DNA from: Opitutus sp.
GTDB lineage: Bacteria; Verrucomicrobiota; Verrucomicrobiia; Opitutales; Opitutaceae
DNA: 64,000 bases
Reading direction: 5' to 3'
Assembly (NCBI GenBank): GCA_024998815.1
Contig: JACEUQ010000003.1
Coordinates: forward strand, 571,900 to 635,899
Position numbers and translations under genes: made by a program. Numbering within the stretch: the first letter of the stretch is position 1; every line of letters starts with the position of its first letter. The notes beneath the pieces were generated by a model, which was not told where the DNA came from, did not search any database, and saw only the letters and a program-made list of their open reading frames with translations. This document shows positions 10,912 to 27,215 of this stretch, in pieces.

Positions 10912-12947
10912 CCCGAGTTCCGCAGTTGGCGTAGTCGGCAAAAAAAGTTTCAGAGGAGAGCAGATTTTTGGCGGCGGGCGCCTACGAGGGAAGACGAGGT
11001 TTTGGAGGCATGTAGTGCCGAACACCCCGTTGAGGAGCGCTCGGATTTCTGCGATACTGCCGGGCATGTTCCTACGACGTAAGACCAAGTCGGCGCGCGG
11101 GGTCGGTTACAGTTATTGGCACTTGTGCCGGACGGTGCGCACCGCGCGTGGGCCGCGTCAGCAGGTCGTCGCCTCGCTGGGCAAACTCGACGACGCGCAA
11201 CTGGCGGGCTTGCGCGGGGGCTGGGATGATTTACCCGCATTGTTGCGCGGGGAAACTCCGATCCCCAAGCCGGACACCGCACCTCTGCCCGGGCTCGGTT
11301 TGCCGGGCCAGACCGAAGGTGACACCGCACCGCGTTGGGAGCCGGCTGATCTGCGCGCTCTGAGAGTAGAACGCAGCCGCGACTTCGGCGAGTGTTACCT
11401 CGCCCTCTCGCTTTGGCACCGTCTCAAGCTCAATGAGCTGCTCGGCGAGCTTTTGCCCGAGGGCCGCGAGTCGGTGGGCTGGGCGCATACCGCCGCTCTG
11501 CTTACCGTCGCGCGGTTTTGCGCGCAACGCTCTGAACTCGGAGTGGCCGAGCACTGGTATGACACCACCGCGCTCGATGATCTGCTCGGTGTGGACAACC
11601 GGCTGGTCAACGATGACCGGCTCTACCGCGCGCTCGATCAGCTCGGCGAGCACAAGGACGCTCTGTGCGCCCACCTGATGACGCGTTACCGGGAGTGGTT
11701 TGGCGTGCGCTTCGAGTTTTTGCTCTACGATGTGACGAGCACCTACTTCGAGGGCGAGGCGGAGCGCAATCCGCAGGCCCAACGCGGTTACTCGCGAGAT
11801 CAACGCAGCGGCAATAAACAGGTTTGCATCGGCCTGGTCTGCACCCCCGAGGGCCTGCCGCTGAGCTTCGAGGTGTTTGCGGGCAACCGCGCCGATGTGA
11901 GCACGGTCGAGGACATCGTGCGTGCAATGGAAACCAAATACGGCCAGGCCGAACGGATCTGGGTGATGGACCGGGGCATGGTCTCCGAGGCGAACATTAC
12001 TTTCCTGCGCGAACGCAAGGCGCGCTACCTGGTCGGCACGCCGAAAAGCTGGCTGCGCGCCCACGAGCAGACTTTGCTCGAACAATCCGACTGGAAAACC
12101 GTGCAAGACGGGCTGGAGGTGCGCCTGGTCGAACAGCCCGACGGCGAGCCGGGCGAGCGTTACGTGTTATGTCGCAGCGGCGCGCGGGCCGAGAAGGAGC
12201 GCGCGATGCTCCAACGTCAGAGCGAGCGACTGACGGCAGAGTTGATCAAGATCGACGCCTGGCTCAGCCGCACGCCGCAGGCCGATCAGGAAGCCGTGGG
12301 CCGGCGGATCGGCCGGCACCTGGGTAAATATCCCGCCGCCGCCGCGATTGTAATGGCGGAGGTATTACGCGATGGGGAAGGCCGTGCCGGCGCCCTGTGC
12401 ATCAGCAGCCGGCTCGACGCCGGACAAAAGGCGCACCGCCAAAAAGGCGCGTATCTGTTGCGCACCAACTGCGAGGAGACCGATCCGGTCTTGTTGTGGA
12501 AGTGGTATATCCAGCTCACGCAGGCCGAGGCGGCGTTCCGCACAGCCAAAAGCGACCTGGGACTGCGACCGGTGTTTCACCATAAAGAGGACCGCGTCCA
12601 GGCGCATATCCTGGTTTGCTTCCTAGCGTTGGCGCTGTGGCGCACGCTTGAGCAGTGGATGCACTCGAAGGGGCTGGGCACCTGTGCACGGCAATTGGTC
12701 AAGGAAATGGGCGGAATCAAAAGCGTCGATGTTGTCGTGCCCGTGCGCCGGGCCGAAATCACGACCGAACTACGCTTGCGTGTAGTCACCAAGCCAGAAC
12801 CGGCCACCGCCCAGCTTCTCACCCACCTCGGCCTGCGTCTGCCCAAAGGCACCCGCGAAATCAGCAATGTAGTGCCGAAAATCGCCCCTTAAATTACGCA
12901 AGTGCCTCAAATACAACAAAACCATCTTTCGAACTGCGGAACTCGGG
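10912..12947 (+). mobile_element. IS1634-like insertion sequence
   Basis: Perfect 16-bp terminal inverted repeats CCCGAGTTCCGCAGTT (10912-10927) and its complement (12932-12947), flanked by a TTAA direct repeat on each side (10908-10911 and 12948-12951). Length 2036 bp, with one transposase gene. The intact ends, clean target duplication and full-length gene suggest a recent insertion. Confidence 0.88.
11066..12892 (+). CDS. IS1634-family transposase (DDE)
   Basis: 608 residues from ATG 11066; an upstream in-frame start at 11015 is possible. The IS4-superfamily catalytic core is visible: first Asp in FLLYDVTSTYFEGE, second Asp in RIWVMDRGMVSEANI, and the Glu-bearing helix in QAEAAFRTAKSDLGLRPVFH followed by KEDRVQAHI. 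The block between GYSRDQRSGNKQVCIGLV and PLSFEVFAGN is characteristic of IS1634/IS1549-like enzymes. No frameshift. Sole gene of the element. Confidence 0.85.
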   Translation: MFLRRKTKSARGVGYSYWHLCRTVRTARGPRQQVVASLGKLDDAQLAGLRGGWDDLPALLRGETPIPKPDTAPLPGLGLPGQTEGDTAPRWEPADLRALRVERSRDFGECYLALSLWHRLKLNELLGELLPEGRESVGWAHTAALLTVARFCAQRSELGVAEHWYDTTALDDLLGVDNRLVNDDRLYRALDQLGEHKDALCAHLMTRYREWFGVRFEFLLYDVTSTYFEGEAERNPQAQRGYSRDQRSGNKQVCIGLVCTPEGLPLSFEVFAGNRADVSTVEDIVRAMETKYGQAERIWVMDRGMVSEANITFLRERKARYLVGTPKSWLRAHEQTLLEQSDWKTVQDGLEVRLVEQPDGEPGERYVLCRSGARAEKERAMLQRQSERLTAELIKIDAWLSRTPQADQEAVGRRIGRHLGKYPAAAAIVMAEVLRDGEGRAGALCISSRLDAGQKAHRQKGAYLLRTNCEETDPVLLWKWYIQLTQAEAAFRTAKSDLGLRPVFHHKEDRVQAHILVCFLALALWRTLEQWMHSKGLGTCARQLVKEMGGIKSVDVVVPVRRAEITTELRLRVVTKPEPATAQLLTHLGLRLPKGTREISNVVPKIAP

Positions 12948-13028: not shown

Positions 13029-13379
13029 TTACTTGTTGATGGTAATGGGACGGCCGTACGCGTCGACCGACGTGTCGTGGGGGACTTGAATGGTGCGCCC
13101 ATCGCTGGTGGTTTCCGTGCGCCAGGTACGAATGGTGCGTGGTTCGTTGGTGAAGGGTTTTTGCGCCCCGCTCACCGTTCCTTCAACAGCCCCGACAGCC
13201 GCACCGACGACATTGCCGCCAACAACGCCGACTACATTTCCAGCCGCTTGTCCAACTGCGGGCCCCGGGTGGGCGGGGTTGGTGGTCGATTTACCTGCGG
13301 GACTGGTGCAACTGGTCAAAAGCGGGGCGAGGACGAGAAATCCGCCGAGAAAAGAACGAGCGCGCAAATGGAAGTTCAT
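13029..13379 (-). CDS. Small glycine-rich lipoprotein
   Basis: 116 residues. N-terminal signal with lipobox LLTSC (Cys24), so probably lipidated and anchored to a membrane. The middle (residues 40-72) is a Gly/Val/Ala-rich repeat-like stretch (VGQAAGNVVGVVGGNVVGAAVG), resembling the glycine-zipper segments of outer-membrane lipoproteins. The C-terminal part is polar (WRTETTSDGRTIQVPHDTSVDAYGRPITINK). No specific family is recognised. It stands alone between the IS and the cytochrome locus. Confidence 0.75.
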   Translation of the reverse strand: MNFHLRARSFLGGFLVLAPLLTSCTSPAGKSTTNPAHPGPAVGQAAGNVVGVVGGNVVGAAVGAVEGTVSGAQKPFTNEPRTIRTWRTETTSDGRTIQVPHDTSVDAYGRPITINK

Positions 13380-13487
13380 AAATGAGGGGTTTGGAGTGTT
13401 GCGGCCGTAAGCCTACCTAGCAGGCAGCAATATTTAAGTCGGCTCATCTGATCGCCCTTAAAATTTACCAGAATGCTTCGAGCCTTT

Positions 13488-13565
13488 TAGCCGCGAAAGA
13501 AAGCAGAGAACACATGGAAATGCAGAGCTTGTTCTTTGCGCTCCTTGCGTTCTTTCGCGGCTAAA
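13488..13565. repeat. Palindromic intergenic repeat (GCCGCGAAAGAA type)
   Basis: TTTAGCCGCGAAAGAA (about 13488-13503) and its complement TTCTTTCGCGGCTAAA (about 13550-13565) bracket a loop of about 46 bases. It lies in the gap between two genes and resembles the arms around the GxxExxY gene at 56118, but carries no gene. Confidence 0.75.
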
Positions 13566-13609
13566 CTGCATGGGTTTAATCCGGCACGTTCGTTACTGTC
13601 TATCGGTGA

Positions 13610-15853
13610 CTACGGCTTCGGCGCTGAACCGCTCACCGATTTATCATTGTTGAAGGCGGACTTAACCGTCGGCGTGAACGTTCCGATGTGATAATTGTGG
13701 CAGAGTGTACAACTATTGCCCGCACCTTGCGGGTTATGGCAACTCGCGCAATTCATCAGGTTCACTTTTTGGAAGTTACTCGTGAATACAGCGGGATTTA
13801 AATTATCCTTAAAGGCCGCTTTATATTGAGCTGCAGGCTCGATCTGGTGGCAGGACTGGCAGCCTTTTTCGCTCAAAAGACTGAAGTGGGTTCCATGATC
13901 GAACTTGGTGAACTTATGCGTTTGGGGATTGGTGGTCGCACTGTGCCAATTGACCACCAGGCCGGCGCCCGGTTTCTGATCAATACTATGGCACTTCGTG
14001 CAACTATTGGTCTCGGCCAACGTTTTAAACTGAAGTCGCGCGTCCGGGGTGGTTGCTTGGGCGGCGGCATATTCCAGCCAGGCTTTCACGAAAGGATCTG
14101 CATGGCCGGTAATACGATACCGAACAGAATAGTCGGAATTGGAGGCATACCAGCCTCCGCCTGAAGTCCACTTTTCACCCGCGATCGGTTTAGGGGCCAC
14201 CGGCGCCACGGGTTTAATTACAACCGGTGCGCTGGGCGCGTCATCAATGATGTCGTCATCCAGAGCCGCAGCCTTGGCTGCTGGCTTTACGGCTGGTTTG
14301 GCTGCAACGGCGGGTGCGGCGGCCAATATATCATCACCTCCAAGAATATCATCGGTGGCTTTGGGGACCGGCTTTACAGGGGCGGGCGCAGCCACCACCA
14401 CCACGGCAACCGGCTTGGGGGCGGCCTTGGCGGGCAGTGCCTGCCCTGCACGGTGAGCGGCAACTTCGATTAATAAATCAGGAATCCACTCAGCCCGCGT
14501 GAAGGCTTGGAGGATTTCGGGCGAAATTGAACCCGCCAGTCCGGCTGCGCTCACCCCGAGCCGTTTTTTGATGGCGTCATGGCCGGAAATAACCAGGTCG
14601 GCAATGAGCTCCTTGGTGGCCCAGGCGAGGGTTTCGGCGGCAGCGTCCAGCTCGGGACGTGAGCGCGGGAGCGACATCAAGTCGACGTCTTTTAATGTCG
14701 CCAGGGCGCCCTGCGCTTTGGCGTCGGACATCAACAAATAACGCATGAAGGGCGTCAGAGGGCCGTCCGCATCGGCGGGCCATTGGCCGAGGGTCGCTGC
14801 GCGGGCTTTAAGGAAGGCCGGATCCAGGCCGGGGACACTTAATACAGCGATACCCGCAGCACCTGGCCGAACAATCGTGTCGCTATGACATTGTGCGCAG
14901 GACTGCTCAAAATTACGCGCCAGCATCAAGCGATTGGCACTGTCGGTGACGTGGCAACTGTTACAGCCTTGCGGGACCGTTTTCTGGTCTTTGGCTGCCG
15001 GGAAGTAGTTTGATATATGCGCGTTGTGATCGAACATGATCCGCGTACGGCGATCGTAGGGATAACTTTTGAAGTCGGGGTGTCCGTTGGGGAAGCCTTC
15101 AAACTGAACGCTATGGCAAACTTGGCAGGACGAATCGGAGACCTTTTTTAGGTCAAAATCGCGCCCGTGGTGCTCCCGATGGCAGGTCGCGCAGGAAACA
15201 TTGCCTTGATGATCCGCAATCGCCCCGACGGCCGTGTTGACTGAGCCGGCGCCGGTGATTTTTTGCGTAATCAGTGCGAGTTCTTCCGCCTTAAGTCCAT
15301 GCGGTTGCATGGGTTGGGCGCCCAGATTATGGCAGGCCATGCAGCGCTCGCTGTTGGCGTGAGAACTGGAAGAAGTAAAAGCGGAGGCCAGCCACGCACT
15401 TGACGTGAGTTGGGCGGTCGAGTGGCACCGATCGCAGGAAATGCCGTCGGCGGCGTGCTGCGCGATCACCGGGCCCGGATTGAAGGTTTGATTCCGGCTG
15501 GGTAAGCCCAGGGCGATTAAAATCGTGCCCAGAGTAAGCGCAACAACCAGCACAACAGCGAGTTTACGCTGGGAGCGGACACTGCGGCGCGGGGTGCACG
15601 GAGGAATGGCTTTGCAGCACGTTCCATCGGGTAGCGGGCCGTCGGCGCATTTACCACCGCGTGAATCGGAGCGGGTGCAATTCCACCGGTCGCCTTCTTT
15701 GCGGGGTTTGCATTCGGTCGTGGCGCGGCACTGACCCTTGCTGTCGGGTCCCAACGGGCACGCGGCACAGGCATCTGCACTGCCGCACTCCCAATCCTGG
15801 TTGGGGCGCTGGTAGCGGCTGAACTTAAAATCGAATCGCTGAAGGCGTTTCAT
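13610..15853 (-). CDS. Decahaem c-type cytochrome with cysteine-rich cytoplasmic N-terminus
   Basis: 747 residues from ATG 15853; a start at 15901 would overlap the preceding gene. Three parts are visible. Residues 1-95 hold ten cysteines (including WECG, ACAAC, CRATTEC, TCC) and no haem motif, predicted to be cytoplasmic. A single membrane helix spans about 97-117. The periplasmic part has ten CxxCH motifs: six at about 140, 171, 221, 243, 297 and 319, and four at about 618, 665, 702 and 715. Between the two haem blocks is an Ala/Pro/Lys linker containing DDILGGDD and DDDIIDD. Last gene of a four-gene operon with a b-type membrane protein and a 4Fe-4S protein. Inferred role: accepting electrons at the inner membrane and passing them across the periplasm. 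Confidence 0.88.
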   Translation of the reverse strand: MKRLQRFDFKFSRYQRPNQDWECGSADACAACPLGPDSKGQCRATTECKPRKEGDRWNCTRSDSRGGKCADGPLPDGTCCKAIPPCTPRRSVRSQRKLAVVLVVALTLGTILIALGLPSRNQTFNPGPVIAQHAADGISCDRCHSTAQLTSSAWLASAFTSSSSHANSERCMACHNLGAQPMQPHGLKAEELALITQKITGAGSVNTAVGAIADHQGNVSCATCHREHHGRDFDLKKVSDSSCQVCHSVQFEGFPNGHPDFKSYPYDRRTRIMFDHNAHISNYFPAAKDQKTVPQGCNSCHVTDSANRLMLARNFEQSCAQCHSDTIVRPGAAGIAVLSVPGLDPAFLKARAATLGQWPADADGPLTPFMRYLLMSDAKAQGALATLKDVDLMSLPRSRPELDAAAETLAWATKELIADLVISGHDAIKKRLGVSAAGLAGSISPEILQAFTRAEWIPDLLIEVAAHRAGQALPAKAAPKPVAVVVVAAPAPVKPVPKATDDILGGDDILAAAPAVAAKPAVKPAAKAAALDDDIIDDAPSAPVVIKPVAPVAPKPIAGEKWTSGGGWYASNSDYSVRYRITGHADPFVKAWLEYAAAQATTPDARLQFKTLAETNSCTKCHSIDQKPGAGLVVNWHSATTNPQTHKFTKFDHGTHFSLLSEKGCQSCHQIEPAAQYKAAFKDNLNPAVFTSNFQKVNLMNCASCHNPQGAGNSCTLCHNYHIGTFTPTVKSAFNNDKSVSGSAPKP

Positions 15854-15872
15854 GTCGGTTTGAGCAGGAGTA

Positions 15873-16697
15873 TCAATTAAACGCCAAAGCCATAAGCCCA
15901 TGCAGCAGCCCCATGAGCAATAGACTAAAGGTGAGCGGAATGTGTATAAACAACCAGTACTTGAGCACGCCTTGGCAGGTCGCTTGCATGTCCAGATTGT
16001 CCTTGGCTTTCACGCACTCGATGACTTCGGCCAGAAAAACGCGTTCCGCGGCCACCATGTAGCGCTGGAGTTGATTGAGTTCTTCGGTGAGGTCGTTCAC
16101 CGGCTTCTCAGAACCGATCAAGTGATGAAAAGTATTCTTTTTAGCAGAGAAATAGGCCTTTAACTTGGATTCATACATGCGTGCCAAGGTAAACGACTTG
16201 GTTTCATTTACGCTTTTCCAGATGATTTTCTCCACATCGGCTTGCAGTTGCTGGCGCAAGCTGGGGATGCGTTCGTACATCAGGTTTTCCCCATATAAAC
16301 GCAGGCGCGAGGGATAGATGCGCGAAAGGATCAGGCCCAGCACACCGCTCAAAGCGACCGCCAAAAAAACACTATAGAGGGCGATCTCAAACAAGCCGTT
16401 CGGCATGCGCAGACCGGTATGAAAAAAGAACACCACGACGGCAAACCAGCCGGCGTAGATATGGAACTGCGTCCACGTCGATGCCTTCAGCAGCGGAATG
16501 AAGGGGAGCTTTTTTCGCGCGTTAAACAGCGCCAGCACCAGGCAGGTGCCGAACAGCGCCGTCCCCGATAATAATCCCGTGGAGCGAATGCCGTTGGCAT
16601 AACTTTCCTGCAGCGCCCAAAAGGCGGCAACCGCCGAAAGGAGCAGGCCAAGGTTGATGAGGCGCCGCTGGGAGAAAAACGTTAGCGTTGAAGCCAT
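15873..16697 (-). CDS. Dihaem b-type membrane protein
   Basis: 274 residues with about five hydrophobic segments: residues 12-28, 42-58, 76-94 and 104-125, then 246-272 after a long polar loop. Four histidines are placed as two pairs with 14-residue spacing on helices (His79/His93 and His252/His266), the usual arrangement for two transmembrane b haems. The roughly 115-residue polar region between the helix groups is helical and charged. Its start overlaps the stop of the 4Fe-4S gene by 16 bases and its stop is 19 bases before the decahaem gene. Inferred role: moving electrons between the cytoplasmic Fe-S protein or quinone pool and the periplasmic decahaem protein. No named family is assigned. 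Confidence 0.75.
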   Translation of the reverse strand: MASTLTFFSQRRLINLGLLLSAVAAFWALQESYANGIRSTGLLSGTALFGTCLVLALFNARKKLPFIPLLKASTWTQFHIYAGWFAVVVFFFHTGLRMPNGLFEIALYSVFLAVALSGVLGLILSRIYPSRLRLYGENLMYERIPSLRQQLQADVEKIIWKSVNETKSFTLARMYESKLKAYFSAKKNTFHHLIGSEKPVNDLTEELNQLQRYMVAAERVFLAEVIECVKAKDNLDMQATCQGVLKYWLFIHIPLTFSLLLMGLLHGLMALAFN

Positions 16698-18391
16698 TTG
16701 GCAAAGGTTTGAGTGTCCTGCATATCAACACGGGTCAGGGCGTCATGCGGGCAGGCGTTGACGCACGCGGGGCCCGTCATTTGTTCGACGCACAGATCGC
16801 ACTTGGCGGCTTTGGTGACCGGTCGATTTTCCTGATCGAGAATGTGTTCGCCGAGTTCATTGCGAATCTCGACCATTTGGATGTTATTATAGGGGCAGCT
16901 GTTGGCGCAGGTGGAGCAACCGATACACGTGGTATCGTTGATGACCACCTGGCCGCCGAGCGCGTTACGATGAATCGCGCCGGTTGGGCAGCCGATCATG
17001 CACACCGGATCGAGGCAGTGCATGCAGGCATTGGCTATCATATAGCGCCCGATCTGGTGTCCGTGCCGGACAAATCGCGGGTTGTTATCGTGCGCCGATG
17101 CACAGGCGCGGATGCAGTCGTCGCAGCGCGTGCAGCGGTCCAAATCCATCACCATGGTGGCGCGTCCGTTGATGAAGCGATTGTCCACCAAGAACTCCAC
17201 GACGTCCGTCGACAACTCGCCGTCGCGGCGGTCGTTGATTTGTTTGTTTTGGGCAACAATCGGCGGGGGGAATGACGCTTGGGGGATTTTCGGCAGAATA
17301 TATTGTTCGACCACCGAAGTCGGAACAACCAGCACGTCGACGTAGCCGAGCGCGCGCAGTGTATATTGAAGCGGCGCCGAATCCTTGGTGTTCCAGTTGT
17401 GCGCGATCTCGTCGAAGCCGAACATTTGGCCGCGGGAGAGGTAACTCGCGGTGCGTTCGCCCTGATTATACTTTTGGCTCATGCGCGCAAACCCGGCGCG
17501 AATAAGAACTAGGCCGTTGGCGTATTGACCTTCCTCGGCGATCAGCGGCTCCTCTTTAATGCGCTCCTCGGGCGCGACGTCCCGATTTTTTTTGTAATTC
17601 GAATGCCAGTCAAAGCTGCCGTAGGTCTCGAAACGGGTTTGATTGGCGACCTCTTTAAGCTCCGCAGGGCTGAGGTCTTTGAAATACTTGGTTTCGCGGA
17701 GGTGGTTCTCCAGTGAATACTTGCGATAGTTTGTGTCAATGAACTGTTTGATCTCCGGGGCGCGTAAACGCAGTTCACGCAGGCCTTGCCAGCGGATTTC
17801 GAGCAGTTCGCAATCTTCCTCGGCAAAAATGGTAGCAGTACGCGGGGTTCGGCTCAAAGCGGCAATTTCGCCGAAGAACATTCCTGCGGTTAATACAGCG
17901 GTTCCGCCTTTGAGGACACTGGGGATGTCGTGCAGAAAAATGGCCGTGGTATCATCCCCCTTTTCATGCTCGGCACCCGCTTTGGCTTCTTTATAGCGAC
18001 GCAGGCTACGCACTTCGGGATAACGCGCATTGCCCCACAACTGGCGCAGGGTAGAGAGAAAGTCCTTCTTCTCGGGTTGCCGGCGGCCAAGTACCTCCGC
18101 AGGAATGGCATCCTTGCCCAAGGCGACCCGTACGCTGCCCGTTATAATGAAAAAGGCTGAATTGCCGTAGTCACCTTCACGGACGATGACCTGATTTTTT
18201 TTAAACGAACGCAGACCGGTGTCGTTTAAAAGAATGTCGGGCAGTGAGGTGCTGGCGGGAAACCGGCTGGCGTCGATTTGGCTAAACGGCGGAATGGATA
18301 AAATCCGCGCCACCGCCACCGCGCCCATGGCACTTTCGAAGGGAACGTCCCAGCGTTGAGGGCGGGAAATGGTGGCGGGGGCTTCAGACAT
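16682..18391 (-). CDS. Cyclic-nucleotide-binding-domain protein fused to four [4Fe-4S] clusters
   Basis: 569 residues, no signal peptide, cytoplasmic. Residues about 60-220 form a cNMP-binding domain with the phosphate-binding cassette FFGEIAALSRTPRTATI and a roughly 60-residue insertion. Residues about 235-365 form a second, degenerate cNMP-type domain (GQMFGFDEIA). Residues 415-550 carry 16 cysteines in four groups (CTRCDDCIRAC, CMHCLDPVCMIGCP, CIGCSTCANSC, CDLC...CVNACP), like the DmsB/NrfC family of electron-transfer subunits. Joining a second-messenger sensor to a Fe-S wire suggests that electron flow is gated by a ligand; that is inference. Second gene of the operon. Confidence 0.85.
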   Translation of the reverse strand: MSEAPATISRPQRWDVPFESAMGAVAVARILSIPPFSQIDASRFPASTSLPDILLNDTGLRSFKKNQVIVREGDYGNSAFFIITGSVRVALGKDAIPAEVLGRRQPEKKDFLSTLRQLWGNARYPEVRSLRRYKEAKAGAEHEKGDDTTAIFLHDIPSVLKGGTAVLTAGMFFGEIAALSRTPRTATIFAEEDCELLEIRWQGLRELRLRAPEIKQFIDTNYRKYSLENHLRETKYFKDLSPAELKEVANQTRFETYGSFDWHSNYKKNRDVAPEERIKEEPLIAEEGQYANGLVLIRAGFARMSQKYNQGERTASYLSRGQMFGFDEIAHNWNTKDSAPLQYTLRALGYVDVLVVPTSVVEQYILPKIPQASFPPPIVAQNKQINDRRDGELSTDVVEFLVDNRFINGRATMVMDLDRCTRCDDCIRACASAHDNNPRFVRHGHQIGRYMIANACMHCLDPVCMIGCPTGAIHRNALGGQVVINDTTCIGCSTCANSCPYNNIQMVEIRNELGEHILDQENRPVTKAAKCDLCVEQMTGPACVNACPHDALTRVDMQDTQTFAKWLQR

Positions 18392-18433
18392 AGTTCCAGT
18401 GGTTAACAGCCTTTGATTAGCGCTCGCAGCCGT

Positions 18434-19384
18434 TTATTGTGCTGCACCGTAGGGTGTTCCCTGTACAACGGTGGGGATCAGGGCGTCGAGCGCGGCCAGT
18501 TCCTCGCCCTTGTAGGTGTCGCTGATTTTGCGGCCCAGATCGCTGATGGTTTGAACGGCAGCCATGATGGGTTCTTTGTTGTTAAGCTTCAGGCCAACGC
18601 CATCGACGGCGGCGGCAACGGCCTTGATTTCATCCCGGGGGAGCACATCGATGATTTTCTGGATTTCCGCACGGGCGGCCTTGGCGCGACGGGCCATGGT
18701 CACGGCATAAGTGGCCTTCTCGGTGGCATTGGCGACACCACGCAGGCTGTACTCGAGGTCAACCACGCGGCCGACCAAGTAAAGCATGCGCTTCCGCTCG
18801 GGGGTCGCATCGGCATTGGTGGTTCCGGCCTTAAAGTGGTGGCGGACTTCGCCTTGCACCCATGAGACCAGCTCAATCGCGCTGCCGGCCTGGTGGCCGC
18901 CCACGTTCACCAGTTTTTCATTGGGAACGGTGTGGCACGAGTAGCAATTGACCGCCAGTTGGTAAATGTTGCTGGGGGAGATAAAGCCTTGGGCGACTGC
19001 GTCGGCGCGGCGGCCCTTTTCATTGTGGAGGGTGATCCAATCCGCTGCTGCACCGTGGCACGATTCGCAGGAAACGCCAGCAACCGCGCGCCCGGTGTCG
19101 TTCACCGTATAGTGGCACTGCATGCACGTGCTCTCCGTTTTGATGTTAACAATCTCCAGCTTGGCGGCGATTTCCTTGGCGGCGGGGCGACGGTGCAGAT
19201 CGTCGAAGGTTTTATAGTGCTTCATCTCCTGCCAGGCGCTGGCCTCGCTCTTGTGGCAATCCGTGCACTTACCGGGCCCCACCAGCTTGGAACTATCTAG
19301 GGCGGCGAAGCTTAGGCTGGGCGCAACAAATAGGGCGGCCAGACAGGCGACCACTAGGTTTTTTTTGGTTTTCAGGGCGGTCAT
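18434..19384 (-). CDS. Tetrahaem periplasmic cytochrome (c554-like)
   Basis: 316 residues with a cleavable signal peptide ending SLSFAALD near residue 28. Four CxxCH motifs at residues 40, 87, 106 and 147, with the first in the GPGKCTDCHKSEASAWQEMKHYKTFD context typical of cytochrome c554-like proteins. The C-terminal half is helical and haem-free. First gene of the leftward operon, 43 bases ahead of the cNMP/Fe-S gene. Inferred to be a soluble periplasmic electron carrier between the inner- and outer-membrane modules. Confidence 0.87.
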   Translation of the reverse strand: MTALKTKKNLVVACLAALFVAPSLSFAALDSSKLVGPGKCTDCHKSEASAWQEMKHYKTFDDLHRRPAAKEIAAKLEIVNIKTESTCMQCHYTVNDTGRAVAGVSCESCHGAAADWITLHNEKGRRADAVAQGFISPSNIYQLAVNCYSCHTVPNEKLVNVGGHQAGSAIELVSWVQGEVRHHFKAGTTNADATPERKRMLYLVGRVVDLEYSLRGVANATEKATYAVTMARRAKAARAEIQKIIDVLPRDEIKAVAAAVDGVGLKLNNKEPIMAAVQTISDLGRKISDTYKGEELAALDALIPTVVQGTPYGAAQ

Positions 19385-19690
19385 GGTTTTTTGCGAAGAA
19401 TGGCTTAAGTAGGGGTGTTAACCCGATGAATTAGTCGAGAGATGTGGAAAAGCAGAATGGCTTCGTGTCAATCGTATGAATATCTCCGATAAAAGTTTCC
19501 CGCGCAAAACCCGAACACCGCCCTGCATAAGTTCTCGGCGAGCCAGTTACCCCAGTTTTATTCACGGCGCTAACCCAAACCGAACCTTGGCATAACCAAG
19601 GATGTAAAGTTGGTCGCAGGGCTGATTATCGGCTTGCGCAGTGATGGTCGGCATGGGCGAGTATAAGCAACACCGCTTAATCCTATTTCT
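19385..19690. promoter_or_regulatory. Divergent promoter region of the cytochrome operons
   Basis: A 306-base gap between the two divergently transcribed cytochrome operons, with no gene. It contains a small palindrome CCTTGG-CATAA-CCAAGG (about 19584-19600) that could be an operator, and several A/T-rich patches. No sequence resembling a TGTGA-N6-TCACA CRP site was found. Divergence around one short region suggests shared control of both operons. Confidence 0.45.
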
Positions 19691-21631
19691 ATGCGTTTCC
19701 CATTTGCCTACAAAAACCTGACATCTGGATGCTTCGCCCTGCTTGCGGCGGGCGTTCTGTTACACGCCGAACCCTCCGCCCAACCCGTTGTCGCCAAAGT
19801 GCAGTCGGCCGACGACGAATTGATTTCTCTCATCGTAGCTAAGCCAGCCGCCAAAGTAGCGGCTGCCGCGGATGACGATTTACTGGGGGGCGATGATGTT
19901 CCCGTGGTCAAGGCGAAGGCGGCTTCTGCACCCTTGGCGCCGGCCAAACCCAAAGCGAAGGATCCGGTTGACCCGCATCTGGCGATCTACGCCAAGAATA
20001 ATTTCCCGAGCGCTTCCGAATGCGCGCCCTGCCACAAGCAAATCTACGACGAATGGCGTTCGTCCAACCACGCCTACGCGTCGATTTCGCCCGTCTTCCA
20101 CAAGTTTGAGCAGAAGATCAACGACTTGGCGCAGGGCACCATCGGCATGTTCTGCATGCGCTGCCACGTTGCGGTCGGGACCACGATGGGCGAAACGCGC
20201 GAACAGCCCCTGTGGGAGCGTTCCGAGGTGTCCCGCGAGGGCATCACTTGCGTCACCTGCCATCGCGTTAAGGAAGAGTACTCCCGTGTAAACGGTGAGC
20301 GCCGGATCGAAATGGGCGACATCACCAAGCCCGTTTACGGCAATTCGAATGCTTCCGGTTTGACGGAGATCATTTTGAACAAGGATAAACACCATGTTAA
20401 GCTCTCACCCCAAGATCCGGGTCCCGGGCAGGTGATTCATAACTCCGCCGTGAAATTTGATGCCCTGAGCAAATCCGAATTCTGTATTTCGTGCCATCAG
20501 GTGGCCGTGCACCCCGGCATCAAACTGGAAGTCGTCTGGGATCAATACCGCGCCTCACCCGCCGCAGCCCAAGGAATCAGCTGCCAAGAGTGTCACATGG
20601 GCAAGGTGCCCGGCAAAGCCGAGGGCTTCGAGACTGGCCCAGCAGCCATCGTTAACGGCAAAGCGATCAACCCCGGTCGTAAGCACTCCAACCACGCCTT
20701 TTTCGGCCCGGGTTATCCGATCGTTCACCCCGGTATCTTCCCTCACCATCCGGAGGCCAAGCGTTTCGCCCTGCAGAGCTGGCTGAAATTTGATTACCGC
20801 GCCGGCTGGGGCACCCCGGAATTCGAGAAAAAAGTGGCCAAAAAGCCCGCCGATTTCACCTTCCCTGAAGAGTGGGCCTCGGTCGAAGACCGCTCGGACG
20901 CCCGTCTCATCGTCGATGAAAACCTGGTGATGCTGGAGCAGAAAAAGAAGTTGCGCGAACAGGTCATGAACAACGGCGCCAAGCTCGATGGCCCGTTCTT
21001 CCAGTCCGATCCGGTTGCCGGAAAAGCGCTGAAAGTGAACTACGTTCTCCATAACACCAACTCGGGTCACAACTTGCCCTCAGGCTCCCTCGGCGCTCAG
21101 CCTGAGCTCTGGCTTAACGTCGCCCTGTTTGACGAAAAAGGTGCCCGCGTTTGGGAGTCCGGTTATGTCGACAGCCAAGGTGACATGGCCGACCTGCATT
21201 CCCCTGATGTCCGTGCGGGCCGTTTGCCGGTTGATAGCCAGCTCTTTAACCTGCAGACCAAGTTCCTGACCACGAACATCAAGGGCACGGATCGGGAGAT
21301 GTACCTGCCGATCAACATGGATATCGACCAACTTCCCTTTATCCGTCCTGCCGGCGTGCCGACGAGCGTCTTGAACCATCCGCCCTTTGTGCGCATGGAG
21401 AGCCGCAGCCTGCCGCCGTTGTCTAAGCGCACCGCCAGTTACACGATTCCGGCATCGGCCATAAAAACGCCCGGGCGTTACCGGATCGCCATTCGTATGC
21501 GCAGTCGCGCCGAACCGATATACTTCATGAACTTCATCGAGGCGACCCCTGAGATGAATCAATCGATGAACGAGTGGATGATCGACCTTCACCCCTCGGC
21601 CGCTGAATTCACGGTAAATCCCGCTCGTTGA
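19691..21631 (+). CDS. Pentahaem exported cytochrome c
   Basis: 646 residues with an N-terminal signal peptide (about 1-26). A low-complexity region (residues 27-92) contains DDDLLGGDD, also found as DDILGGDD in the decahaem protein of the opposite operon. Five CxxCH motifs at 111, 155, 187, 265 and 298, the first in the SASECAPCHKQIYDEWRSSNHAYAS context of c554-like cytochromes. Residues about 400-640 are haem-free and beta-rich, with HNTNSGHNLPSGSLG resembling haem-protein accessory regions. First gene of the rightward operon; four bases separate its stop from the barrel gene. Inferred: periplasmic partner of the outer-membrane barrel. Confidence 0.87.
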   Translation: MRFPFAYKNLTSGCFALLAAGVLLHAEPSAQPVVAKVQSADDELISLIVAKPAAKVAAAADDDLLGGDDVPVVKAKAASAPLAPAKPKAKDPVDPHLAIYAKNNFPSASECAPCHKQIYDEWRSSNHAYASISPVFHKFEQKINDLAQGTIGMFCMRCHVAVGTTMGETREQPLWERSEVSREGITCVTCHRVKEEYSRVNGERRIEMGDITKPVYGNSNASGLTEIILNKDKHHVKLSPQDPGPGQVIHNSAVKFDALSKSEFCISCHQVAVHPGIKLEVVWDQYRASPAAAQGISCQECHMGKVPGKAEGFETGPAAIVNGKAINPGRKHSNHAFFGPGYPIVHPGIFPHHPEAKRFALQSWLKFDYRAGWGTPEFEKKVAKKPADFTFPEEWASVEDRSDARLIVDENLVMLEQKKKLREQVMNNGAKLDGPFFQSDPVAGKALKVNYVLHNTNSGHNLPSGSLGAQPELWLNVALFDEKGARVWESGYVDSQGDMADLHSPDVRAGRLPVDSQLFNLQTKFLTTNIKGTDREMYLPINMDIDQLPFIRPAGVPTSVLNHPPFVRMESRSLPPLSKRTASYTIPASAIKTPGRYRIAIRMRSRAEPIYFMNFIEATPEMNQSMNEWMIDLHPSAAEFTVNPAR

Positions 21632-21635
21632 TCCC

Positions 21636-23123
21636 ATGACCTCTTCTCAAATGATCCTTAAACATGCCCTGGGTGCTGGGTTGGTTTTGGCTTCGCTCGG
21701 TTCCGCAGGGGCCAGCGACGGCCACGTTGCCATGGATGCACGTGCGCAACCCGTTCCTTACGACGCTGCCGCTTACAAATTCGGGCCCGACCCGGTCTAC
21801 AACCTGCCCTACGATTTCCAGCGACAGCTCGACATCTATGGCGCCAAACACGCCAACCCGACGGCCCGCCCGTTGTTGGAATTGGGCCGTGAGATGTATG
21901 GTCCTGGTCAATTTGAGCCGGGCATAAACCTGTTTGGCGAAAAGAACCTGGTTTTCCCGCAACTGCTGCTCTACGGCGATTTGCGTACGGTGGTCGGCTA
22001 TAACAACACCGGCGGCAAGGATAAGGAAATCGTGGCCAGCAAACTGACGCTGGACCTCGATTTGAAGATCACGGCGACCGAGCGCATCCATGCGACCTTC
22101 ACCCCGCTGGATCATCGCGGCGACGTGACGCGCGTGTCCCAAGTGGACGGGCAAAGTGACAACAAGGCGATTTTCGACCTTGAGCCCGATGCGCTGTTTA
22201 TCGAGGGCGACATGGCCCGTATTATCTCCGGCGCCACCAATAAAGACAACGGCTACGACATTCCCTTCACCGCCGGCCTCATTCCGCTGTTGTTTCAGAA
22301 CGGCGTCTGGATGCAGGACGCGATCACCGGCTTTGCCTTTACTATTCCGGCGCGCAACAGCCCCGCGCTGCAGATTAGTAATATGGACGTGACCTTTTTC
22401 GCCGGTTTTGACCGGGTCACTACCGCGGCGATGGCTAATAATGACAACTCGGGTGTTTTTGGTTTCAACACCTTCATCGAGGCCATGTCGGGTTACTGGG
22501 AGGTGGGCTATGGCTATGTCGACGGTCACGACAGCAAGGACGACCTCAGTTATCATAACGCCTCGGCTGCCTTCACGCGCCGGTACTGGGACCGCATTTC
22601 CAACAGCGTGCGGGTGATCGCCAATTTCGGCCAGGAGCCTGGCGCCGGGCAAACGCAGACGGCGGACGGTTATTTGTTCCTCATTGAGAACAGCTTGATC
22701 TCGTCCAAGCCCCTGACGCTGGTGCCCTACTTTAATGCTTGGGCTGGTTTTGATCGCCCGCAGTCGCTGGCCCGCGCGGCCGGAGCTGGCGGCGTATTGT
22801 TAAACACGGGTATTAACTTCGAAACCGACGGTATCACCGGTTTTCCAACGATGGATGATACCGGCCATAACACTTACGGCGGCGCCCTGGGTATCGAGTA
22901 TCTCTTCGATCTCACGCAGCAAGTGGTGTTTGAATTTGCCGCCCTCGATGCGTTTGATCAGCCGGGTACCGCGGCCGACAAAGCCCCTGAATACGGCCTC
23001 GGCGCCCGCTACCAGCGTAACCTGAGCAACGCGTGGATCTTTCGCACCGATCTGATCAACGTGTTTCGGGACAATAATCCCGACGTCACCGGCGTCCGCT
23101 TCGAGGTGCGCCGCAAGTTTTAA
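21636..23123 (+). CDS. Outer-membrane beta-barrel protein of the cytochrome operon
   Basis: 495 residues. Signal peptide with cleavage likely near AGASDG (residue 28), then alternating polar/hydrophobic strands rich in aromatic residues, ending in a C-terminal strand terminating in Phe (FEVRRKF), the usual signal for barrel insertion. No haem motif. It lies between a pentahaem cytochrome and a membrane-anchored reductase, so a role as the outer-membrane sleeve or substrate channel of an electron-transfer complex is plausible. A plain substrate porin is the alternative, and no sequence signature here separates the two. Confidence 0.8.
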   Translation: MTSSQMILKHALGAGLVLASLGSAGASDGHVAMDARAQPVPYDAAAYKFGPDPVYNLPYDFQRQLDIYGAKHANPTARPLLELGREMYGPGQFEPGINLFGEKNLVFPQLLLYGDLRTVVGYNNTGGKDKEIVASKLTLDLDLKITATERIHATFTPLDHRGDVTRVSQVDGQSDNKAIFDLEPDALFIEGDMARIISGATNKDNGYDIPFTAGLIPLLFQNGVWMQDAITGFAFTIPARNSPALQISNMDVTFFAGFDRVTTAAMANNDNSGVFGFNTFIEAMSGYWEVGYGYVDGHDSKDDLSYHNASAAFTRRYWDRISNSVRVIANFGQEPGAGQTQTADGYLFLIENSLISSKPLTLVPYFNAWAGFDRPQSLARAAGAGGVLLNTGINFETDGITGFPTMDDTGHNTYGGALGIEYLFDLTQQVVFEFAALDAFDQPGTAADKAPEYGLGARYQRNLSNAWIFRTDLINVFRDNNPDVTGVRFEVRRKF

Positions 23124-23155
23124 TCTAACCGTCGTCTGAGTCGTATTTGTTAACC

Positions 23156-24418
23156 ATGTCCCAATATATCATCCTTTCACTCGGGCTCATTCTGGTCGCG
23201 CTGGTCGTGGCCACATTGGGATCCCTGCTGGTGGCCCAGTTGCGGGCGCTCAGCGCTCAAAAACAGGCGCAGGCGATTTCCTTGCAGAAGCTCTCCACGG
23301 AACTGCTCATTGCGCAAAAGGCTCTCAAAAAGGCCGAAACCGGCGGCAGTGTTTGGAGCGGCGTTCGCAAGTTCAGTGTGATCAAAAAAGTGCCGGAGAC
23401 CAGTGACGCCACCTCGTTTTATTTGGCTCCGCACGACAAAAAACCGCTGCCGCCCTTTAAGCCCGGTCAGTACCTGACCTTTGAACTCGATATCCCGAAT
23501 CAGAAAAAGAAAACCATTCGCTGCTATAGTTTAAGCGATGCGATTCTGCCTGATTATTATCGGGTGACTATCAAGCGCTGCCCGCCCTCCAAGCCCGAGC
23601 ATGCAGCCGGTCTGGCGTCCAACTTCTTCCATGATTCGATTCATGAAGGGGCGATTCTTGATGTGAAGGCACCCGGCGGCCATTTCTTCCTCGATACCAA
23701 CAAGCAGTCCCCGGTGGTTTTAATCTCCGGCGGCGTCGGCATCACGCCGTGCTTGAGCATGATGAACGAGATTATCCAAAACGGCTCGCGGCGTGAAATC
23801 TGGTGGTTTTACGGGGTGCGCCATGGTGGAGAGCACATCATGAAGGAGCACGTGGCGGCCATGGCGGCCAAGTACAGTAATATCAGCCTCCACGTCTGTT
23901 ATTCCAATCCCACCGAGGACGACAAACTGGGTGCGGATTACCAGCATCACGGCCGCGTCGGCGTGGATCTGTTTAAAAAGGTCCTGCCATCGAATAATTT
24001 CGATTACTACATGTGCGGGCCTGGCCCGATGATGGAGTCGGTGGTCAAGGGTCTGGCCGAGTGGGGCGTGCCCGACGACAAGGTTCACTATGAGGCCTTC
24101 GGCCCGGCCAGCGTCAAGAAAGCGGCTCCTGTGGCGGCAGTGGCGGCCGATGCCGGCGCCAAACCGGTGATGGTGACCTTTGCCAAGTCTAGCAAAAGCG
24201 TCGCGTGGAATCCGGAAGCGGGTAATCTGCTGGCGTTTGCCGAATCGCAAGGAGTTGCGATCGCCTCGGGCTGTTGCGCCGGCCAGTGCGGCACCTGTGT
24301 GACGGCGATTCGTAGTGGCGATGTGACTTATGCTCAGGAGCCCGGCAGCAAGCCCGAGCCCGGTTCCTGCTTGGCCTGCGTCGCCGCGCCCAAGGGCGAT
24401 GTGGTTTTGGACGCCTAA
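23156..24418 (+). CDS. Membrane-anchored NAD(P)H oxidoreductase, FAD plus [2Fe-2S] (NqrF-like architecture)
   Basis: 420 residues from ATG 23156. An N-terminal membrane helix (5-27) and a short coiled stretch (30-60) are followed by an FAD-binding barrel with IRCYSLSD at 121-128 and an NAD(P)-binding domain with SGGVGITP at 191-198 and MCGPGPM at 286-292. The C-terminal plant-type [2Fe-2S] domain has Cys373, Cys378, Cys381 and Cys408. NqrF places the [2Fe-2S] domain before the FAD domain, so this order resembles phenol-hydroxylase or Hcr-type reductases with an added anchor. Third gene of the operon. Inferred to couple the NAD(P)H pool to the cytochrome system, in either direction. Confidence 0.86.
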   Translation: MSQYIILSLGLILVALVVATLGSLLVAQLRALSAQKQAQAISLQKLSTELLIAQKALKKAETGGSVWSGVRKFSVIKKVPETSDATSFYLAPHDKKPLPPFKPGQYLTFELDIPNQKKKTIRCYSLSDAILPDYYRVTIKRCPPSKPEHAAGLASNFFHDSIHEGAILDVKAPGGHFFLDTNKQSPVVLISGGVGITPCLSMMNEIIQNGSRREIWWFYGVRHGGEHIMKEHVAAMAAKYSNISLHVCYSNPTEDDKLGADYQHHGRVGVDLFKKVLPSNNFDYYMCGPGPMMESVVKGLAEWGVPDDKVHYEAFGPASVKKAAPVAAVAADAGAKPVMVTFAKSSKSVAWNPEAGNLLAFAESQGVAIASGCCAGQCGTCVTAIRSGDVTYAQEPGSKPEPGSCLACVAAPKGDVVLDA

Positions 24419-24435
24419 GCGCAGTCGGTCAGTGC

Positions 24436-24474
24436 AAAAAGAAAAACCGCCCGGAAGCGTGAGCTCCCGGGCGG
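24436..24474 (-). terminator. Intrinsic terminator (leftward)
   Basis: CCGCCCGG (24447-24454) pairs with CCGGGCGG (24467-24474). Read leftward the hairpin is followed by TTTTTCTTTTT (24436-24446). It is positioned to end the small leftward gene at 24510 and may also stop the rightward operon. Confidence 0.65.
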
Positions 24475-24509
24475 CGTAGTTACTGGTTTTAACTGCAATC
24501 CCGTTAGAA

Positions 24510-24704
24510 TTACAGGGGCGAAGTCGTCCCGCGGCTGAGCAACCCGTTAAGGCGTGCGGCCTGGGCCGACGTTGCGGCTTCATATTGTTTCCGCACAGCA
24601 ATCGTGGCTGGCTGGTTGGCATTCACTTTGGACTTTTTGAAGAATCCAGAAGGCGCAAACCCGCCGATGACGTTGAGCGAGAACTTATCTTTGATCGTAT
24701 TCAT
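24510..24704 (-). CDS. Small hypothetical protein
   Basis: 64 residues if started at ATG 24704 (MNTIKDKFSLNVIGG...); a longer form from 24761 adds 19 residues of low plausibility. Lys- and Ala-rich, no signal peptide or membrane helix. Supported mainly by the well-formed leftward terminator 36 bases past its stop. No family recognised. Confidence 0.4.
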   Translation of the reverse strand: MNTIKDKFSLNVIGGFAPSGFFKKSKVNANQPATIAVRKQYEAATSAQAARLNGLLSRGTTSPL

Positions 24705-25418: not shown

Positions 25419-25944
25419 GTCCTCACCACAAACGCTCGCGCACTCACAGGCGACAAAAAAGCCAGTCGCCTTCCCTTGGTGGCCTTGCTTGGCGTGGCGG
25501 GGGTTGGCCTCTGGATATACAAAAGCCGCCTCGGGGGAGACGGCTGTTGTGACCTGAAAACTAAAACCACAAAACTGGCTACAAAAACATAGACGCAGCG
25601 CAGGCTTAAACGCTCAAAATAAAATCAAAGAAAGTGGCGGGCCGGGGCCGGACGGGTTCTGGGGCGGAGCTGGATATCTGTTAACCAACTGATGATTAGC
25701 TGAAAGGGGGGCTTTTCGCTGCTTGGTTTTTGCGTGGGCAGGGCGCAGGTGCGGAGGCTGACTATTAGCCTCAGGTTAACCGTCGGCGGGAAATCCGTGC
25801 GCCGCCCAATCGCCCAAAAAAGAGCACAGAGGACGCTGAACCGGATATGAAGAAATTTAATTCCAGTATTAAGGTGGGGCGCTAGTTTGCGCTTGGGCGT
25901 GCATCGGGCTGGAACTTCGTGTGGTTGCATTTATAACGCCACTC
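25419..25944. other. Intergenic stretch without a convincing gene
   Basis: A 526-base gap. A weak rightward frame (25403-25592) would encode a short protein with one membrane-like segment (LPLVALLGVAGVGLWIY), but it overlaps the start of the leftward gene and has no support. A small hairpin GAGGCT...AGCCTC lies at 25754-25772. The AT-rich stretch near 25835-25870 is probably the promoter of the barrel gene that follows. Confidence 0.4.
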
Positions 25945-27114
25945 ATGCCTACCCTTCCCCCGACGCTTTGCCGTTTCGATTTTTCAATTCGCGGTGCCGC
26001 GCGATCCCTTGCCTGCGCGGGATTGGCATTAACCGCGGCGCTCCCCCTCGCTTTGGCGCAATCGGGCTACGGTGTGGGGCCCGCCGCTGAGGTGCCCAAG
26101 ATCCCTGCCGCCGCGCCCGCGCCCCAGGGGGCGTTTGATTATTTAACTCAGGGTAAACTCTCGGGTGCCGCTCGCTACCGCTACGAAAACTATGCGCAGG
26201 ATTCCGTTCCTGGCGCGACCACCGCTGCCGCCGGCCGCATCGACGGCAACGCCGTGGCCTCGACCCTGCGCTTGACCCTCGGCTACGAGACCTTGCCCTG
26301 CCACGGCCTGACGGCGTTCGTCGAGGGCGAGGGCGTTTACGCGGTCGGCGAGGACGAGCACTACCGCATGACCACCGTGCCCGGACAAAGCGACCAGCCC
26401 CGCGCCGTTATTAACGATCCGCTCGGCACCGAATTAAATCAGGCCTTCCTGAAGTGGCAGCTTCCCGACACCGGCGTCATGCTGCTCGCGGGGCGCGAGT
26501 CCTTTTTCCTCAACAACGGGCGTTTCGTCAGTTACTCGCCTTGGCGGCAGAACAACCAGTCGATCGACCTGGCACGCACCTCGGTTAAATTTGGCGACGG
26601 CTACACCGCCAATTACGCCTACCTCAACAAGGTTCACCGCGTCGTCGGCGCGGACGCCACCGATGGCGATCTCGGCATGAATTCCCATGTCGGCAGCTTC
26701 GATTACGCCAAAATGGGCGTGTTTAACGCGTCAGCCTACGCCGTGCTGCTCGACTACGACGACAACGCCGGTCAGGCCGCCAACGACACGGCCACCACCG
26801 GCCTGCGCCTGACCGGCCCTTACAAGTTCGATGATACCTGGAGCGTCGTTTACACCGCCGACTACGCCCATCAAACCGACTACGCCGACAATCCGGCGAA
26901 CGTCGCCCTCGACTACTGGTGCGTGGAGCTGGGCGTCGGCTACAAGGCGCACAAAGCGTACTTCGGCTGGACGGTGCTCGAGGGCGGGTCGGGCAACACC
27001 TTCCGCACGCCGCTGGCCCATCCTTTCAACGGCTGGACCGAGAAATTCGCCGCCACCCCCGGCTCCGGCTTGGACGCGCGTTACCTGACTTTTACCGGGC
27101 CGGTTCCCGGAGTG
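25945..27114 (+). pseudogene. Outer-membrane barrel protein (alginate-export-like), 5' part, cut by an IS
   Basis: 390 codons of an exported protein: signal peptide ending ALAQSG, a Pro/Ala-rich linker, then beta-strand-rich sequence (LSGAARYRYENYAQD..., LRLTLGYETLPCHGLTAFVEGEGVY) resembling the alginate-export or porin-like barrels common in this phylum. The frame runs straight into the IS end at 27115 and would stop at 27258 inside the element. Joining residue Val390 to the frame at 30504 restores a 459-residue protein, so the gene was intact before the insertion and now lacks its last 69 residues. Confidence 0.85.
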
Positions 27115-27215
27115 TGTGAGCGGCGGCGCGAACACCGTCTATTTCTGGCGGTTACAAAATCACCTGTCGTAAAAGCCGATGACCGGCCCCGCCAGGGGCC
27201 GATCATCAGGCCCGG

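Follow-up and report, generated by a model that had tools for sequence, protein, structure and literature searches.

This work concerns a seven-gene electron-transfer locus in the genome of an Opitutus sp. (family Opitutaceae, phylum Verrucomicrobiota). The window that was analysed is a stretch of 64,000 nucleotides of contig JACEUQ010000003.1 (positions 571,900 to 635,899), within a host genome of 4.24 Mb in three contigs, and the locus occupies positions 13610 to 24418 of this stretch. The genes form two divergent arms, four on the minus strand and three on the plus strand, with 306 bp between them. The seven open reading frames (ORFs), as well as the 19 CxxCH motifs counted in an earlier sequence-only reading of this DNA (ten in mhc10, four in mhc4 and five in mhc5), were confirmed at the positions then given. 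The features are the following.

13610..15901, minus strand: mhc10, anchored decahaem c-type cytochrome (10 CxxCH; cytochrome c7/c3 Pfam matches)
15873..16697, minus strand: cytb, dihaem b-type membrane protein (four His; hydrophobic segments)
16682..18391, minus strand: cnmpFeS, protein with cyclic nucleoside monophosphate (cNMP)-binding domains and four [4Fe-4S] sites (Pfam, alignment)
18434..19384, minus strand: mhc4, periplasmic tetrahaem cytochrome of the c554 type (4 CxxCH, Pfam, signal-like N-terminus)
19385..19690, no strand: intergenic stretch of 306 bp between the divergent arms (ORF borders; short repeats only)
19691..21631, plus strand: mhc5, pentahaem cytochrome (PHC) of the c552/ExtKL-type family, with a C-terminal beta-sandwich domain (motifs, profile, model)
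21636..23123, plus strand: barrel, outer-membrane beta-barrel of about 18 strands with an OprD/Occ-like fold (model, fold match)
23147..24418, plus strand: fadr, N-terminally anchored flavin adenine dinucleotide (FAD)/NAD(P)H/[2Fe-2S] reductase with a TTG start (Pfam, hydrophobic segment)

The inner module comprises fadr, cnmpFeS, cytb and mhc10, and the assignments made earlier for the first three of these proteins hold. In particular, fadr matches the Pfam domains FAD_binding_6, NAD_binding_1 and Fer2 and has a hydrophobic segment at residues 12-30, as expected of an anchored reductase. The cnmpFeS protein matches Pfam cNMP_binding (E 8.6e-27) and several Fer4 models, and its relatives in the PDB are polyferredoxins of the HycB type (also FdnH and NarH) and the cNMP domains of PKG/PKA. 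Its 16 Cys fall into four groups of the form C-x2-C-x2/4/8-C-x3-C, invariant in 13/13 alignment rows, and the same invariance is observed for G174, E175, R184 and T185. In a CRP/PKA-type cNMP domain, Gly-Glu and Arg-Ser/Thr mark the phosphate-binding cassette; this cassette is intact here, and cnmpFeS may bind a cyclic nucleotide. Neither a signal peptide nor a helix was seen in its sequence and, lacking an export signal, the protein should be cytoplasmic. In cytb, H79/H93 and H252/H266 form two pairs with a spacing of 14 residues, invariant in 44/44 rows, a pattern that fits two stacked b haems. The protein has no CxxCH motif and falls below the cut-off of every named family, the best Pfam match being DUF4405 (E 0.0055, 17.6 bits for a cut-off of 26.7), with no match in NCBIfam.

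The decahaem cytochrome mhc10 is composed of a Cys-rich N-terminal domain, a basic stretch, a single helix (residues 114-132) and then the ten CxxCH motifs. Its true start probably lies 16 codons downstream of the listed one, at 15853, since close homologues begin at MKRLQ. The Cys-rich domain ahead of the membrane helix, which the sequence-only reading did not record, would be cytoplasmic and is matched by no Pfam or NCBIfam model. Of its ten Cys in the window protein, eight are kept in 32-33 of 33 rows, one in 22 and one in the window alone, and three are kept in row L118. Among 150 genomes of the family, strong matches to this domain (E below 1e-16) occur at decahaem genes in 22, which are the same 22 that have cytb, and only weak matches (E above 1e-4) are found in eight further genomes.

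As for the haems of mhc10, the ten His of the CxxCH motifs and nine other His are kept in 33/33 rows and a tenth other His in 31/33, and this conservation fits ten bis-His haems. The protein also gives a weak profile match (E 5.6e-5) to PDB entry 6r2q chain A, which we take to be MtrA of the MtrCAB complex. Bare motif counts are in themselves weak evidence, because the CxxCH pattern in the DNA of the whole host genome (244) is barely above that of a reversed control (208); chance motifs in the cytochromes of the locus are ruled out by the conservation of the motifs across rows. Unstructured stretches with acidic repeats resembling DDLL or DDILGGDDIL lie at about residues 500-560 of mhc10 and 35-80 of mhc5. 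These repeats recur in homologues from other phyla and might possibly be a shared docking tag.

The outer pair is formed by mhc5 and the barrel. The AlphaFold model of the barrel, built on a 28-row alignment (predicted local distance difference test, pLDDT, 78.1; predicted template modelling score, pTM, 0.74), has about 18 strands and bears out the earlier assignment of an outer-membrane barrel. Its fold matches are OccK7 (Z 27.6, root-mean-square deviation 2.8 over 318 residues), MOMP, OprD and AlgE. At the level of sequence, the protein matches no Pfam or NCBIfam family at E 0.1 and no PDB sequence at E 1; that is, the model has the OprD/Occ porin fold in a protein that does not belong to the OprD/Occ family by sequence. 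An ordinary substrate porin would weigh against the idea of an electron conduit, and on this point the outcome is divided, as the fold is of that kind and the sequence belongs to no known family. MtrB, OmbB and ExtI are absent among the fold matches listed for the barrel and for mhc5 (50 rows each), which by itself excludes nothing.

The model of mhc5 (22 rows, pLDDT 69.7) has a disordered region at residues 1-91 and a C-terminal beta domain. Its relation to Thermochromatium tepidum c552 (5ze8) is seen both by profile (E 2.2e-15) and by structure (Z 16.0 over 321 residues), and mhc5 has the layout of the PHC family, with a five-haem domain followed by an immunoglobulin-like domain. The five CxxCH His and five other His are invariant in 22/22 rows. 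Taken with the pattern of mhc10, this conservation fits bis-His wires, not open catalytic haems.

To place the locus among its relatives, a named genome collection was searched with the cnmpFeS alignment, and the best 80 of 543 relatives were used, so that the sample leans towards close relatives of cnmpFeS. Together with 17 further loci of the family they make 97 loci, centred on cnmpFeS and annotated with our own profiles; five of the 22 family regions (L031, L032, L034, L035 and L036) repeat named loci and were excluded. Taxa were taken from record titles, single ones of which may be misassigned, since most loci are contigs of metagenome-assembled genomes (MAGs).

All seven genes are present in 28 of the 97 loci, from eight phylum-level groups: 12 loci are verrucomicrobial, five belong to Planctomycetota, five to Pseudomonadota and two to Nitrospinota, with one each from Latescibacterota, SAR324, Zixiibacteriota and Poribacteria. 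The order mhc5-barrel-fadr-mhc4-cnmpFeS-cytb-mhc10 on one strand is found in 16/28 of these full sets, the divergent order of the window in 8/28 and other orders in 4/28. The nearest named relative, an Opitutaceae bin (L053), has all seven genes at 90-97% identity. The gene cytb is present in 95/97 loci and mhc10 in 92/97, and every locus missing either ends within 560 bases of the cluster, while fadr is present in 88/97, eight of the nine loci without it running into a contig end. The gene mhc5 lies directly upstream of the barrel gene in 30/30 loci that show both; the barrel is seen without mhc5 in three more loci (two of these lie at a contig end and the third has an mhc5 fragment of 89 aa), and mhc5 without the barrel in one, at a contig end. 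The seven genes are thus one conserved electron-transfer unit, as had been proposed, and the barrel and the pentahaem cytochrome are an inseparable pair within it.

The two parts of this unit can nevertheless occur apart. In the 150 family genomes, the cytb profile reaches its threshold in 24, of which 22 give strong and two give weak matches, and the barrel is present in seven, with mhc5 in the same seven and each with the core; these seven are not independent, since six belong to one genus. Of 337 genomes sampled from the phylum, seven have the barrel, four of them with a strong cytb match. In the other three the outer pair, with its genes adjacent, is core-free (L146, L148 and L147), fadr being present at L147. 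The outer pair can therefore work with other electron donors, and the linkage within the pair is tighter than that between pair and core. Conversely, of the 26 loci flanked by 3 kb on either side, nine show the core with no outer pair of either kind in view; at one of these (L055) the pair lies on another contig of the same genome. In addition, the one-contig genome G071 has cytb and no barrel match. Cytochrome genes that occur in relatives without barrel and reductase would also weigh against a conduit, and here the outcome is likewise divided, with a barrel-free core in many relatives and fadr retained almost throughout.

It could be argued from this dispensability on both sides, and from the cNMP domain of cnmpFeS, that the system serves redox balance or protein maintenance, with the inner module venting excess NAD(P)H to periplasmic cytochromes under cNMP control and the outer pair as a passenger. 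We consider this very improbable: one order and strand of all seven genes in 16 full sets across phyla is hard to expect of a passenger, and fadr still accompanies one of the three core-free pairs.

Besides the arrangement of the window, a variant B was found, in which fadr, cnmpFeS, cytb and a shorter decahaem gene are accompanied by different outer genes, coding for a barrel-like protein of 730-850 aa and a protein of 1,130-1,340 aa with ten CxxCH. The one such ten-CxxCH protein that was scanned contains LVIVD repeats; no Pfam model matches its barrel partner. At an example locus, L042:13584-19907, the decahaem LVIVD protein looks like a beta-propeller surface cytochrome. Within the genus, four other members were searched with cnmpFeS; two have variant B and two lack a full-length match. 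On a quick cnmpFeS tree, which has no bootstrap, deep joins made unsure by long branches and a label C that mixes true absence with contig ends, the 37 rows of variant B are explained by four label changes (shuffled mean 29.9), and the 34 rows of the type-A barrel loci by 16 (shuffled mean 28.3). The mhc5 of the window is 54-63% identical to some planctomycetal, alphaproteobacterial and Bdellovibrionota pairs and 35-42% to 19 other seven-gene loci, whereas its cnmpFeS is 49-57% identical to all those loci, whichever mhc5 group they have. Because the mhc5 identities split and those of cnmpFeS do not, the comparison points to an outer pair exchanged separately from the core. Two further loci stand somewhat apart. 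A distant version at L152:7005-11543 (G161) has cNMP/Fe-S, 459-aa b-type and 488-aa ten-CxxCH proteins, the rest not being in view, and in G259 the set is spread over two contigs (L149:6950-10658 and L151) with mhc5 broken into two frames, perhaps by decay or an assembly fault.

Among the closest known systems is the extHIJKLMNOPQS cluster of Geobacter sulfurreducens, which likewise has a c552/PHC-family pentahaem gene beside a porin gene, and also ten- and four-haem cytochromes and a b-type cytochrome (PMC5877670, PMC11976967). The c552-like PHCs of cable bacteria and Geobacter ExtKL form one structural family, related to an archaeal cytochrome nanowire subunit; extKL clusters with the porin gene extI, and PHCs are listed among the potentially catalytic cytochromes of cable bacteria (PMC11976967). 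The likeness of the barrel to ExtI is one of gene position beside a pentahaem gene, and barrel size is no safe guide to kinship, since the strand counts given for ExtI differ between papers (12 and 21). Unlike ext, the seven genes of the window include no rhodanese lipoprotein, Rieske protein or bc-type partner, and have an NAD(P)H reductase and a cNMP polyferredoxin instead. Furthermore, ExtKL is a selenoprotein, whereas mhc5 has neither selenocysteine (Sec) nor Cys at the corresponding place: on a weak alignment, the Sec position of MccSep is Ser in six and a gap in 16 of the 22 mhc5 rows. The mhc5 ORF of the window reads without TGA. With the ExtKL model NF040886 it scores 28.8 bits (cut-off 250), and none of nine close relatives matches at E 1e-6. 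A selenite reductase, as kinship to ExtKL would suggest, is thus not our first reading, given the absent Sec and the distant kinship, and is kept as a rival.

In its general form, this rival holds that the porin admits a soluble, probably anionic acceptor that mhc5, fed by the inner module, reduces in the periplasm, with no export of electrons. The 18-strand OprD/Occ fold and the obligate pairing of porin and pentahaem cytochrome would suit such a function, as would the catalytic potential ascribed to PHCs in cable bacteria and the lowered selenite and tellurite reduction of an extI deletion mutant (PMC5877670). Five extra invariant His, on the other hand, leave no obviously open haem in mhc5, the Sec of MccSep has no counterpart, and in variant B the outer genes are replaced by those of a larger barrel and a decahaem protein of 1,130-1,340 aa. 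Periplasmic reduction appears rather unlikely to us, even if extracellular transfer and periplasmic oxyanion reduction cannot be separated from sequence.

The reading that we prefer, with a probability of roughly 0.48, is that of an NAD(P)H-driven electron line across the envelope, perhaps gated by cNMP, which feeds an outer pair resembling ExtI/ExtKL. The linkage of the seven genes, the invariable adjacency of mhc5 and barrel, and variant B with its larger barrel and decahaem LVIVD protein all speak for it. As to the direction of flow and the order of carriers, we infer that cytoplasmic NAD(P)H, and not quinol, would be the electron source and would reduce the anchored FAD/[2Fe-2S] reductase fadr. 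From there, electrons would pass to the four-cluster cnmpFeS at the cytoplasmic side of the membrane, a step in which the Cys-rich domain of mhc10 may take part; a cyclic nucleotide would probably gate this Fe-S step. The dihaem cytb would then carry electrons across the inner membrane, and the anchored mhc10 would take them into the periplasm, with the tetrahaem mhc4 as a shuttle. They would finally reach mhc5, presumably in contact with the 18-strand porin of the outer membrane. The pair may work like Geobacter ExtKL/ExtI and deliver electrons on the cell surface or close to it, where metal oxides, humics or some other large or solid material would accept them. In Geobacter, extHIJKL on its own allows reduction of Fe(III) oxide at up to 50%, and of Mn(IV) oxide at up to 75%, of the wild-type level (PMC6148476).

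Several observations weigh against the NAD(P)H-driven electron line. The barrel is small and has the fold of a substrate channel, the confidence of the mhc5 model is middling, and haem ligation in the cytochromes is read from conservation alone. The core has no outer pair in view at about a third of the loci with sufficient flanks, and the pair lacks the core in 3/7 barrel genomes of the phylum sample. In Geobacter, moreover, reduction of Fe(III) citrate was not significantly affected by the extI deletion that lowered selenite and tellurite reduction (PMC5877670). Finally, none of the genes of the locus codes for a surface cytochrome, unlike those of the MtrCAB, PioAB, MtoAB and Geobacter Pcc systems.

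The latter systems likewise encode multihaem cytochromes with an outer-membrane barrel; here, in contrast, the barrel has about 18 strands and is OprD-like, and an inner-membrane anchor holds the decahaem protein. The barrel of MtrB has 26 strands. A large barrel of the MtrB/PioB family was not found at the locus, given the strand number and the lack of any Pfam or NCBIfam match at E 0.1, and it is unlikely that a cytochrome passes through the barrel in the manner of MtrAB, because the barrel is much smaller than MtrB. The conduit of the sequence-only reading remains plausible in a changed form: in place of a large barrel filled by a cytochrome, a pentahaem/porin pair would receive electrons from an unusual inner module linked to NAD(P)H and cNMP. 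The separation of this module from CymA, CbcL and ImcH, made in that reading, is upheld by the descriptions in PMC6295460. These families are likewise inner-membrane entries to multihaem electron export and are described as single c-type cytochrome polypeptides acting on quinol, whereas the module of the window has four separate proteins, including an NAD(P)H reductase and a cNMP/Fe-S protein. No quinol-oxidising membrane polypeptide with c-type haems was found among the proteins of the locus, cytb being devoid of CxxCH and mhc10 having a single helix; this is judged from architecture and not from a direct profile search with the three families. FdnHI, HybAB and NarHI resemble the locus in a four-cluster ferredoxin gene adjoining a dihaem b membrane gene; the ferredoxin of the window differs in having cNMP domains and no export signal, and its cytb reaches no family cut-off. 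Within the phylum, extracellular electron transfer has been proposed for verrucomicrobial clusters of a porin beside multihaem cytochromes (He et al. 2017, PMC5615132). The porins of those clusters are predicted to have 20 strands or more, and their periplasmic cytochromes carry eight haems; the available text of that paper mentions neither a cNMP nor an NAD(P)H module. In the open-licence paper library that was searched, preprints not included, we recognised no cNMP/Fe-S/multihaem locus like that of the window, and no paper on MccSep was found there.

The host probably has other outlets for electrons. In its genome, the COX1 cut-off is exceeded at four places. There is also a NapA-like gene, which at 868 bits falls short of the NCBIfam cut-off of 904, and one resembling NrfA (over the cut-off of Pfam Cytochrom_C552 and below that of NCBIfam). 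The host would therefore probably respire by other routes besides this locus, and a role of mhc5 in nitrite reduction would be redundant. The same inventory bears on a flow of electrons in the reverse direction, from an outside donor such as Fe(II), reduced humics or sulfide through the pentahaem/porin pair to cytb and uphill to NAD(P)+. Such carriers are reversible in principle, and some related loci come under titles of iron oxidisers or chemolithotrophs (Mariprofundus L083; Nitrospinota L066 and L086). Nitrate- and nitrite-reductase-like genes and oxidases, however, do not point to lithotrophy, and the locus contains no Cyc2-like or other donor oxidase; we regard reverse flow as distinctly improbable.

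As regards the divergent arms themselves, the 306 bp between them were described earlier as a control region. The length is correct; the label derives solely from the divergence of the flanking genes, and no sigma-70-like site lies within 19385-19690 (seven in 13300-24700, shuffled mean 4.7). A search of PHROGs with the locus returned a generic ferredoxin only. The locus is flanked by insertion sequences, with a DDE_Tnp_1 transposase at 11015-12892 and an IS21-type IstB/IstA pair at 27216-29446; ORFs of equal lengths and end sequences to those of the latter pair recur in the same genome at L158:11418-13648. At 25921-27258 of the window lies a porin-like ORF of 445 aa with no Pfam match at E 0.01, whose 3' end runs into the IS21-type element. 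Elsewhere in the genome (L158:5780-7933, G000:C1) a 717-aa protein carries eight CxxCH and TPR repeats.

For bacterial extracellular electron transfer, PMC6295460 names as inner-membrane entry points three families of quinol oxidases. A conserved set that apparently starts at NAD(P)H would extend this list, and the cyclic-nucleotide domain that it carries would offer a means of regulation. That a cNMP-gated, NAD(P)H-driven and quinone-independent inner module, spread between phyla and combined with exchangeable outer-membrane pairs, represents a new type of entry is a tentative proposal, and a somewhat doubtful one; the module would here include the mhc10 wire with its Cys-rich domain, and the pairs would be either mhc5 with the 18-strand porin or a large barrel with a decahaem beta-propeller protein. 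The locus is wider in distribution than the sequence-only reading could see, being found under titles of Verrucomicrobiota, Planctomycetota, Pseudomonadota, Nitrospinota, SAR324 and others, and the pentahaem family of Geobacter, cable bacteria and T. tepidum is thereby seen paired with a porin far outside Geobacter. Since the record of one carrier of all seven genes, Hwanghaeella grinnelliae (L085), is not marked as a MAG, the role of the system may be testable in culture.

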